Source: Methanothrix sp.
GTDB taxonomy: Archaea; Halobacteriota; Methanosarcinia; Methanotrichales; Methanotrichaceae
Assembly (NCBI RefSeq): GCF_026419855.1
Contig: NZ_JAOAKP010000014.1
Location: 1 to 37,329 of the forward strand
DNA length: 37,329 nt
Direction of reading: 5' to 3'
Both the position numbers and the translations under genes were made by a program. The number at the start of each line of letters is the position of its first letter. Position 1 is the first letter of the stretch. Under the pieces are notes generated by a model. It had not been told where the DNA came from. It saw nothing but the letters and a program-made list of their open reading frames with translations, and searched no databases. Shown piece after piece: positions 6,897 to 37,329 of the stretch.

Positions 6897-7202
6897 GGTG
6901 GTCTACCTTCTTTGAGTTGATACTGGTGCACCGGCTCCCTGAGATGTGTTTATAGTCCTTCGCGTCACTTCATATAAGCTAATTTAAAATTTGCTGGACA
7001 TGTCGCACTTCATACACGATTTTATGTAATATGCAATATTATATCAACTTATGCAGAATACTATATTTTGAACGCTGTCAGCGTAAAAATCGACATCCAT
7101 GACCTGTAAATACTTGTCCGATGCCTTCCAGCGCGGTTGATGGCTATGAATTTCCTGCAGCTATTGCTTTTGCATTTATCCACACGTCATAGGTAGACCA
7201 CC
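6897..7202 (-). repeat. 193-bp repeat unit U, copy 1, interrupted by a 115-bp element
   Basis: The unit is bounded by 11-bp near-palindromic ends, GGTGGTCTACC (6897-6907) and GGTAGACCACC (7192-7202). Its reverse complement aligns along its length with 33122-33315. Subtracting the inserted element and its TA duplication (113 bp) leaves 193 bp, against 194 bp in the other copy. The end portion reads as a short peptide frame (DGYE.P.AIAFA.IHT then stop) that is similar in both copies, so it may derive from a gene. Confidence 0.75.
6951..7065 (+). mobile_element. 115-bp MITE-like element, copy 1
   Basis: An AT-rich non-coding element reading TATAGTCC to ATACTATA. Its ends form an imperfect terminal inverted repeat of about 28 bp (19 matches by eye). 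It interrupts repeat unit U: the paralogous unit at 33122-33315 has an uninterrupted GTGTTTATTTT (reverse complement, TA at 33260-33261), whereas here the same flanks are separated by the element with TA on both sides. By hand count it differs from copy 3 at 5 and from copy 2 at 8 of 115 positions. Confidence 0.85.
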
Positions 7203-16447: not shown

Positions 16448-17941
16448 TCACGCGAGAGATGCCTCGAGCAGCCTCTGCTTGACGAAATCCCTATCCAGGC
16501 TTGCGAGGAACCAGCCGGCCTTTGGCCCCTGGCGCTCTCCGAGAAACGCAAGGTAGACCGCCTGGAAGAACTTCTTCGGATCCAGGCCGAGCTCGTTCGC
16601 CACTGCATATATCTCGTCGTGGATCTCCTGCGCGCTCTTTCCATCTATCCTCTCAGCAAGCAATCCAAGACCCCTGCGCTCCTCCGGGGTGATGTTTCTG
16701 ACCGCCTGGGGAAGGGTCTCCTTAACCTCGAACTTCACGAACGGCGGTGCGTACCGCTCCAGCCATATCCTCACGTTCCGGGCGCGCGCGAGTATCTCGT
16801 CCCTGCGCGATGTCTCGTAGCCACTCCTCTCCAGCACTTTGAGAAGCAGATCTTCGTCATCACGTGCGATCTGGACAGCTGTCACCATATGCCTGAACGG
16901 TATGGTGAACGGCTCACTGTGTCTTATTGAGGACAGCTCCAGCGCCCTTGCATCACCCCTTCTCTGGTCGTACTCATCCACAAGGGTGAGGAGCGGAAGA
17001 CCTGGATCGAACTCTATGTGCTTCTCCGGCTTCGTCCTGATTATCAGGTAACGCAGGACCTCTGGCGGCACGACATCGAGCATCTCCTGGACCGTCACAA
17101 CAAGCCCTGTGGAGCTGTGCATCGCGCCCTTACCCTTGAGATGGATCCACTCGTAGACAATCGGATATGGAGCAGGGTAGCTGTAAACATCCTCGCTGAT
17201 CCTCTTGCCGGTATCGTAAGATCCTCCAGCGGTCGCATGATCCTTTCCGAAGGGCTCGACTGTCACTTTGAAGATGTGCCAGCGTGCAGGCCAGTCGACC
17301 CTCCAGACTAGCTTGCCACCGCCACGCATGCTCACGCTTCCAGACGAGCCGCACTCGCAGACGTAATCGACACTCTCTGAATCAAGATCGAATCCTGTCA
17401 CCCTGGTTGTGTTCATGCGGCCGCAGTCCCTGCAGATCGGATCAAAGGGACTCCAGGTCGGCGCAACATCCCTGCCGGAGATCTCCTTCAGTATCCTTGC
17501 GATCTCATCCCTCTTTTTCAGCGCGATCTTTATGGCATCCAGATAAACGCCCTCTTTGTAGAGCTGATCCGCCCTGTACACCTCCGGCTTTATGTCCAGG
17601 GTATCCATGGATCTGAGGAACGGCTGCAGGAAGTGCTCTGAGTAGCTGCTGCAGCATCCCTCCGGGCACGGTATCTCAGATAAAGGCTTGCCGACATGCT
17701 CCCTGAAGCTCTCGTCCAGAAATGGGTAGAGCCTCCGCAGGCGATCATATGTATCAGCTATGTAAATCAGTCTCGCCTCAACACCTCTGTCTACAAGAGC
17801 TCTGTAAACAGCATCGGCTGTCATGACCTCGCGCAGGTTTCCTATATGCACAGGCCCTGATGGCGTTATGCCTGTGGCCAGTGTGTGCGGGCCACCGTCC
17901 TTGAGCCTCTCTGCAATCACATCTGCCCAGTGGATGATCAT
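16448..17941 (-). CDS. lysS: Lysyl-tRNA synthetase, class I
   Basis: This enzyme charges tRNA-Lys and belongs to the class I (Rossmann) form found in most archaea. The HIGH motif appears as PSGPVHIGN (about 28-36) and the KMSKS equivalent as GKGAMHSS. A zinc-ribbon-like insertion with CRDCG and VCECG is seen near residues 175-200. The C-terminal helical anticodon-binding region is complete. Length is 497, normal. The ATG 17941 start gives [13 protein letters not shown], as expected. Monocistronic on the minus strand, apart from the small ORF downstream. Confidence 0.96.
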
Positions 17942-18458
17942 AAGCCGAGATCGATGCAGAGCGGGATATTAAGCTTCCGGCCACGACAAACAAAATGAGT
18001 CACAATGCGCCTACGAGGATAGGTGCAAAACCCAATGGTTTGTAAAACGATATCTCTCGCCATGTTTTATGGTCCTTTGCGTCACTTCATATAAGCCAAT
18101 TTAAAATTTGCTAGACATGTCGCACTTCATACACAATTTTATGTAATATTCAATATTATATAAACTTATGCGGAATACTATAATCTCCTCATGACCAACA
18201 GCATGCCTCGAAACATCCAGCCGCCCCGGTGCGTCTCATGTGCTCCCTAACCAGAAGGCACAGTCCCCGACGCTGCCAATGGCTGGCATAGTCCCGAGAT
18301 GATCTCTTCTCTCAGCGGAGTGATAGCGAGGGCCACCCTCCGGTAATACAATACTGCAAGTGTACATCTTAACATTGTTACTGAAAAAGCTATATATCGC
18401 AAATCAAGTTATTTTCATGAATTTGATAATACCAAGTCAGATCAATAAGGTGATTGTA
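17942..18458. other. Intergenic region with a 115-bp element
   Basis: The divergent upstream region of lysS and the FmdE-like gene. It contains copy 2 of the 115-bp element (18068-18182). The remainder, including 18190-18360, has no recognised gene. A TATA-like GCTATATATCGC at about 18388-18399 could drive the downstream operon. Confidence 0.5.
18068..18182 (+). mobile_element. 115-bp MITE-like element, copy 2
   Basis: Same orientation as the copy at 6951 and differing from it at 8 of 115 positions by hand count. It starts TATGGTCC and ends ATACTATA. It lies between lysS and the FmdE/ABC operon. No open frame of note is inside. Confidence 0.85.
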
Positions 18459-23723: not shown

Positions 23724-23852
23724 TTCGAATTTTGACGCCGTGCTGTCCAATACGGATCGGCTGTACGACACTGTACAGCGATGATTTTTTTCTCATGCGC
23801 TTCTACCAGGTACTACCTGCAGCCGGCTTTTTGTAAGTTCTGGTTCGTGGCT

Positions 23853-23969
23853 GCTGTGTTGGATAAGTCTTTAAAATCCGCAAGCAGAAGATGATTCCAG
23901 GAACGAGTGGAGAATAGATCGGAATCGATATCTTTAGACGTTATCTAAAAAAAGTTATCCAACACAGCA
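23853..23969. mobile_element. 117-bp MITE-like element with TIRs and 10-bp target duplication
   Basis: The ends are GCTGTGTTGGATAA (23853-23866) and TTATCCAACACAGCA (23955-23969), a near-perfect terminal inverted repeat. GTTCGTGGCT stands directly outside both ends (23843-23852 and 23970-23979), an exact 10-bp target-site duplication. The interior is non-coding. A related copy begins at 37253. It lies between tRNA-Arg and the nac promoter. Confidence 0.85.
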
Positions 23970-28132: not shown

Positions 28133-28283
28133 CCTGAGCTCCTCATCATTTATAGTATTCCGCATAAGTTGATATAATATTGCATATTACATAAAATCGT
28201 GTATGAAGTGTGACATGTCCATCAAATTTTAAATTAGCTTATATGAAGTGATGCAAAGGACTATAAATGATTAGGAGCTCAGG
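28133..28283. repeat. Palindrome split by the 115-bp element
   Basis: The arms CCTGAGCTCCTCATCATT (28133-28150) and AATGATTAGGAGCTCAGG (28266-28283) are reverse complements at 17 of 18 positions. Without the inserted element they would form one ~38-bp palindrome centred on TA. Related arm sequences occur at 60-77 and 33377-33394. Confidence 0.75.
28151..28265 (-). mobile_element. 115-bp MITE-like element, copy 3
   Basis: Reverse orientation relative to copies 1 and 2; 5 of 115 positions differ from copy 1 by hand count. It starts TATAGTATTCCGC and ends GGACTATA on the plus strand. It is inserted in the exact centre of a palindrome, again at TA. Confidence 0.85.
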
Positions 28284-33121: not shown

Positions 33122-33315
33122 GGTAGTCTACCTATGGCGTGTGGATAAGCGCAAAAGCAATAGCTTCAGGCGATTCGTAGCCATCAGCCACGCTGGAGAA
33201 CGTCATACAGAGATGAACATACCTCTGGGTTTCGATTTCGAGGCTGATATCGTCCAAAATAAACACGTTTGGGGAAGCCAGCACATTGGGATCAACTCAA
33301 CAAAGGTAGACTACC
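33122..33315 (+). repeat. 194-bp repeat unit U, copy 2 (uninterrupted)
   Basis: Bounded by palindromic GGTAGTCTACC (33122-33132) and GGTAGACTACC (33305-33315). Its reverse complement matches 6897-7202 once the 115-bp element there is removed. It retains the empty insertion site (TA at 33260-33261). It abuts repeat V at 33319. A minus-strand frame here reads VFILDDISLEIETQ … EAIAFALIHTP then stop, a possible gene remnant. Confidence 0.75.
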
Positions 33316-33318
33316 TGG

Positions 33319-33395
33319 CACAGTTATCTTCTAAGAAAAGCAGCATCATTCGCCACATCTTCATCTCACCTTGCCTAAAGATGAGGCGCTCAGGT
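33319..33395. repeat. Dispersed repeat (family V), second copy
   Basis: Matches positions 1-78 of the window closely, beginning CACAGTTATCTTCTAAG and ending GATGAGGCGCTCAGG. It follows repeat unit U after 3 nt. No gene is present in the surrounding 33004-33565 region. Confidence 0.7.
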
Positions 33396-37170: not shown

Positions 37171-37252
37171 GAATCCACGTTGGGTAGAAATCTACTTAAA
37201 TTATTCTATGTTCTTGGAGCAGCTTTCTCATCACATTCCCGGGATCAATGCG

Positions 37253-37329
37253 GTGTTGGATAAGTCTTTAAAATTCGCAAGCAGAAGACGATTCCAGGAA
37301 TGCGTGGAGAGTAGATCAGAATCAATAGC
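37253..37329 (+). mobile_element. Second copy of the 117-bp MITE-like element, cut by window end
   Basis: GTGTTGGATAAGTCTTTAAA begins here and continues to the last base; it matches 23856-23932 with 8 differences in 77 by hand count. Whether it is a miniature copy or the left end of a full insertion sequence cannot be seen. Confidence 0.75.

Follow-up and report, generated by a model that had tools for sequence, protein, structure and literature searches.

A genus-restricted MITE of the IS630 kind in the archaeon Methanothrix, flanked by TA and in one case nested within another MITE-like element

A stretch of 37,329 nucleotides from Methanothrix sp. (contig NZ_JAOAKP010000014.1 of assembly GCF_026419855.1), referred to here as the window, contains the same short sequence three times, and one of the copies interrupts another repeat. 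This raises the question of what kind of element this sequence is, and of what could have moved it. The preliminary description of this DNA reported three copies of 115 bp (6951-7065 and 18068-18182 on the forward strand, and 28151-28265 on the reverse strand). All three are present at these places and share 93-96% identity, but the length of 115 bp counts both flanking TA dinucleotides, and the mobile part has a size of 111 bp. As determined by sequence comparison, copy 1 (TAGTCC...ATACTA) occupies positions 6953..7063 (+), between TAs at 6951..6952 and 7064..7065. Copy 2 is located at 18070..18180 (+), with TAs at 18068-18069 and 18181-18182, and adjoins a gene for a class I lysyl-tRNA synthetase (16448-17941, reverse strand); copy 3 is located at 28153..28263 (-), with TAs at 28151-28152 and 28264-28265. 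The unit between the TAs measures 111 bp in 33 of the 40 full copies of this genome and 110 bp in the rest. Because the 115 bp consist of the 111-bp unit plus a TA on each side, the net insertion amounts to 113 bp. The element is too short to contain a transposase gene, and it is bounded by terminal inverted repeats of 25 bp, located in copy 1 at 6953..6977 (+) and 7039..7063 (-). These repeats are imperfect: in the family consensus, the left and right ends match at 17 of 25 positions.

A genome-wide search showed that the element is dispersed. The genome (1.9 Mb, 147 contigs) contains 42 matches, 41 of them with E-values between 4e-57 and 7e-25, which excludes chance, and the copies have unrelated flanks. 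Matches were also present in four of the five other genomes of the genus, many in G004 and G005, a few in G001 and one in G002; no match was found in the fifth, G003, nor in the 35 more distant genomes among the 40 other genomes compared. When the exact pattern of the left end was searched for in the GTDB genome collection, it was found in one assembly only, G005, and in no further genus. In addition, the literature searched yielded no MITE described for this genus. The element is a new, genus-restricted MITE of the IS630/TA type, and is ordinary in kind.

Evidence that copy 1 was inserted comes from the repeat that it interrupts. This host unit extends from 6897 to 7202 on the forward strand, a total of 306 bp with the insert, and the window contains an uninterrupted paralogue of 194 bp at 33122..33315 on the reverse strand, which represents the empty site. 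It had been claimed that comparison with the paralogue shows an exact duplication of TA, and that the two units are of equal length once the element is subtracted, and both observations were borne out. Removal of the 113 bp leaves 193 bp, versus 194 bp in the paralogue, and the two sequences align without a gap across the junction, where both read GTGTTTATTTTG with one TA; the counterpart of the duplicated TA of copy 1 is located at 33260..33261. The score of this alignment is 199, and the best of 200 shuffles scored 39. Furthermore, an identical empty junction is present in the paralogues L012 (contig C136), L056 (C117) and L058 (C61) of the same genome, and also in several host-type units of another species, G001. 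At the G001 locus that is orthologous to the locus of copy 1, the entire host unit is absent.

What the preliminary description overlooked is that the interrupted repeat is a MITE-like element in its own right, with target duplications of 8-9 bp in several copies elsewhere. It starts with GGTGGTCTACCTT and terminates with a near-inverse of this sequence, TAGGTAGACCACC. Complete copies of its family in G001 have sizes of 192-206 bp, and in that species exact direct repeats of 8 bp bound the host-type units L211, L212 and L213, and a repeat of 9 bp bounds L214; the repeats around L208 match at seven of eight positions, L210 has none, and the copies of the host unit in the window show no clear target duplication (4/8 and 2/8 matches). 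Thus, based on the inverted ends and on the duplications in several copies elsewhere, the host unit belongs to a different family of MITE-like elements, which makes copy 1 a nested insertion, a MITE within a MITE. The family of the host unit, whose ends read GGTAGTCTACCTT / TAGGTAGACTACC, has many copies in G001. Several copies of the 111-bp element also interrupt further dispersed intergenic repeats, which are present at many loci, including positions 1-61 and 33319-33379 of the window (CACAGTTATCTTCTAAGAAAAGCAGCATC...; ...ATCATATGGATAAGAGC...). The window also contains a direct repeat of 79 bp with 90% identity (23852-23930 and 37249-37327), a relative of which adjoins a copy of the element on G000:C89.

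Flanking TAs are the rule throughout the family, as the earlier claim of a TA duplication implied. They are present on both sides of 38 of the 40 full copies of this genome and of 32 of the 38 copies of its relatives, and the other copies, two and six, respectively, lack TA on at least one side. Single-TA paralogous empty sites were also identified for the copies L027, L053, L058 and L073, and for others. Some inferred empty sites do not have a TA now (L007 when compared with L053; the locus of copy 2 in G001), which mutation would explain. The orthologous locus of copy 2 in G001 has the same flanks and lacks the element: the matched flanks are separated by 50 bp, versus 163 bp in the window, a difference of 113 bp, and a finer alignment places the gap at 113 or 114 bp. 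In 51 of 74 copies a T precedes the TA, and in 49 of 74 an A follows it, versus 17% and 23%, respectively, of all TA sites of the window. This over-representation indicates that TTAA-like sites are preferred. Four of 27 insertions are located inside ORFs of at least 100 aa and 23 outside them. The flanks of copy 3 (28136-28281) are almost perfectly palindromic about the TA, with 14 of 15 pairs (GAGCTCCTAATCATTTA / TAAATGATGAGGAGCTC), which is atypical of the element family. The idea that hairpins or palindromes are targeted, which these flanks prompted, was rejected, as the family mean is 4.0 of 15 pairs, versus 3.8 for TA controls.

The window was reported to contain no transposase, and indeed no IS630-type (DDE_3) match was found on its contig; the DDE_3 search identified two IS630-type genes in the genome, one on contig C122 and the other on contig C55. 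The search for a full-length insertion sequence with similar ends, proposed in the preliminary description, thus led to another contig of the same genome. The intact IS630-family element on C55 (G000:C55:25407-26516) has a size of 1,110 bp, is flanked by TA and encodes a transposase of 351 aa. This protein scores 192.3 bits with the NCBIfam model transpos_IS630 (NF033545), whose cut-off is 100 bits, contains the Pfam domains DDE_3 and HTH, and has the triad D182, D259 and E294, in which 34 residues separate D259 from E294 (DD34E). The left border of the element reads TTTA followed by TAGTCTTACGCTAAACTTAATATAA, and the right border GAGTTATGCGGATAACTA followed by TATT (TTTA/TAGTC...AACTA/TATTC); the insertion at TA is seen in one complete copy. 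Like those of the MITE, its own ends match each other at 17 of 25 positions. Moreover, the 25-bp ends of the MITE consensus match those of the C55 element at 18 of 25 positions on the left and 19 of 25 on the right, and the left end of the MITE matches the right end of the C55 element at 17 of 25; among unrelated 25-mers of the window that begin with TA and are preceded by TA, the highest match was 14 of 25. A transposase with 62% identity in another genus of the family (G054) has one border, TAGTCATCCGCATAAGTTTTTATAA, with the same type of end, and such ends therefore appear to belong to this subgroup of insertion sequences. Inside the 25-bp ends, no similarity between the MITE and the C55 element was detectable, which argues against an origin of the MITE by simple internal deletion from the copy now present. 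An internally deleted copy of the insertion sequence itself is found in G001 (L156), which retains 191 bp of the 5' part followed directly by 79 bp of the 3' end. A probable third MITE family is inserted in IS630 remnants at this locus (G001:C5, about 43800) and at L158 (G004:C2, about 97200); its ends read about GAGAATCCCTAAAA.../...AACAGGAATACTC or GAGGATTCCTAAAA.../...AATAGGAATCATC.

The dispersal of the element, its TA flanks and the presence of an IS630 element with matching ends support the earlier proposal of a TA-duplicating MITE that is moved by a transposase of the IS630/Tc1 type. In our view, the element is very probably a non-autonomous MITE of the IS630 (Tc1/mariner-like) kind, moved by an IS630 transposase from elsewhere in the genome. 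We infer that it transposes in trans: the DD34E transposase of the C55 element, or a close relative that is now lost, would recognise the imperfect ends of about 25 bp, move the element and insert it at a TA, preferably at TTAA-like sites outside genes, after which TA would stand on both sides. Copy 1 would have landed in this way within the older MITE-like element of 193 bp.

The identity of the acting IS630 element deserves separate consideration. A single intact copy of the insertion sequence was assembled; a second, partial piece is 100% identical and is split over two contig ends (C139/C64), and G004 and G005, which are rich in MITEs, hold only remnants of it. The real partner may therefore be another member of the IS630 subgroup, lost or, in an assembly of 147 contigs, unassembled, and the lack of similarity inside the ends would agree with this. 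We nevertheless consider it unlikely, though worth keeping in mind, that such an element and not the one on C55 has driven this TA-targeting MITE, because the C55 element is intact and matches both ends of the MITE, and because the second gene of this type, on C122, is disrupted, with its coding sequence divided over two frames, and was rejected as a partner; the ends of its relative in G002 are visibly different (CTAGTGCTCCATAAC...). A full-length parent in G001:C7, where a gap of 1.4 kb separates two pieces of the element, was also rejected: this copy of 111 bp (L046, G001:C7:47666-49089) is split by an insert with a TnpB-like gene (IS605-type as read from the sequence), not an IS630 gene.

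The copies of this genome diverge by 0.9-13.5% from their consensus, with one outlier, and for 32 of 33 copies the nearest relative is found in the same genome. Several pairs of copies show one mismatch or none, although their surroundings are unrelated. Such near-identical copies point to repeated transposition, some of it recent. They also argue against the view that larger duplicated segments, or recombination between repeats, spread the copies, the TA being merely part of a unit of 115 or 117 bp; several copies do lie inside larger dispersed repeats, but several distinct host repeats have empty paralogues, all of which break exactly at the element and keep one TA, and this makes the view highly improbable. 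We attach equally little probability to the element being a conserved functional sequence (a regulatory RNA or DNA site) held in place by selection: its mostly intergenic position (23/27) and fairly uniform length would fit this, but the copies are near-identical in unrelated flanks, copy 2 is missing from the orthologous G001 locus, and no orthologous site is common to the species. Indeed, a comparison of the 300-bp flanks of the 40 own copies and 38 copies of relatives revealed no insertion site shared between species, with two one-sided short matches only. Thus, neither fixed orthologous sites nor a general lack of TA flanks, which the preliminary description had named as evidence against an insertion, were observed. 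A structured RNA was likewise rejected, as Rfam has no family at the element and the predicted folds are no better than those of shuffled sequences (z from -1.17 to +0.42).

Identical copies of 111 bp are also present at unrelated sites of different species (L031, L038, L041 and L044 between G005 and G004; L033 and L051 between G002 and G004), which suggests either recent transfer between species or contamination of the assemblies (binning). It is possible, though we put this forward tentatively, that both the MITE and its IS630 partner are currently active and move across species borders.

The best comparison is perhaps provided by RUP, the repeat unit of pneumococcus, which has a size of 107 bp and about 110 copies, and for which IS630-Spn1 is the proposed mover (PMC2229807, PMC3049150). 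RUP and our element are of similar size, have ends that resemble the ends of an IS630 element resident in the genome, target TA and are intergenic. The likeness concerns these features; by analogy, our element would work as RUP does with IS630-Spn1, and we do not claim that it belongs to RUP. Whereas RUP is bacterial, the present element is archaeal and genus-restricted, and its ends are longer and imperfect (17/25). Kamoun et al. (2013) reported that archaeal MITEs and their partners have only the terminal repeats in common (PMC3852290). An IS630-type MITE of Methanosarcina mazei, with 89 bp, five copies and inverted repeats of 16 bp (PMC3852290, Table 4), likewise resides in a methanogen and shares similarity with its IS630 partner in the terminal repeats only; it differs in genus, length and copy number, and that table gives no target duplication. 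The Correia/NEMIS elements of Neisseria (PMC2229807, PMC10969869) are also short, with terminal inverted repeats, TA at the termini and many copies, but they occur in another organism and some contain promoters and an IHF site. Finally, the MITE shares its ends and TA target with the autonomous IS630 family, as represented by the C55 element, but lacks a transposase.

The element is thus a well-documented archaeal MITE, for which an IS630 candidate partner has been identified, and which offers nested insertions as well as numerous exact empty sites. The pair of MITE and IS630 element could be used for studies of MITE mobilisation in methanogens, and for ordering insertions by their nesting.
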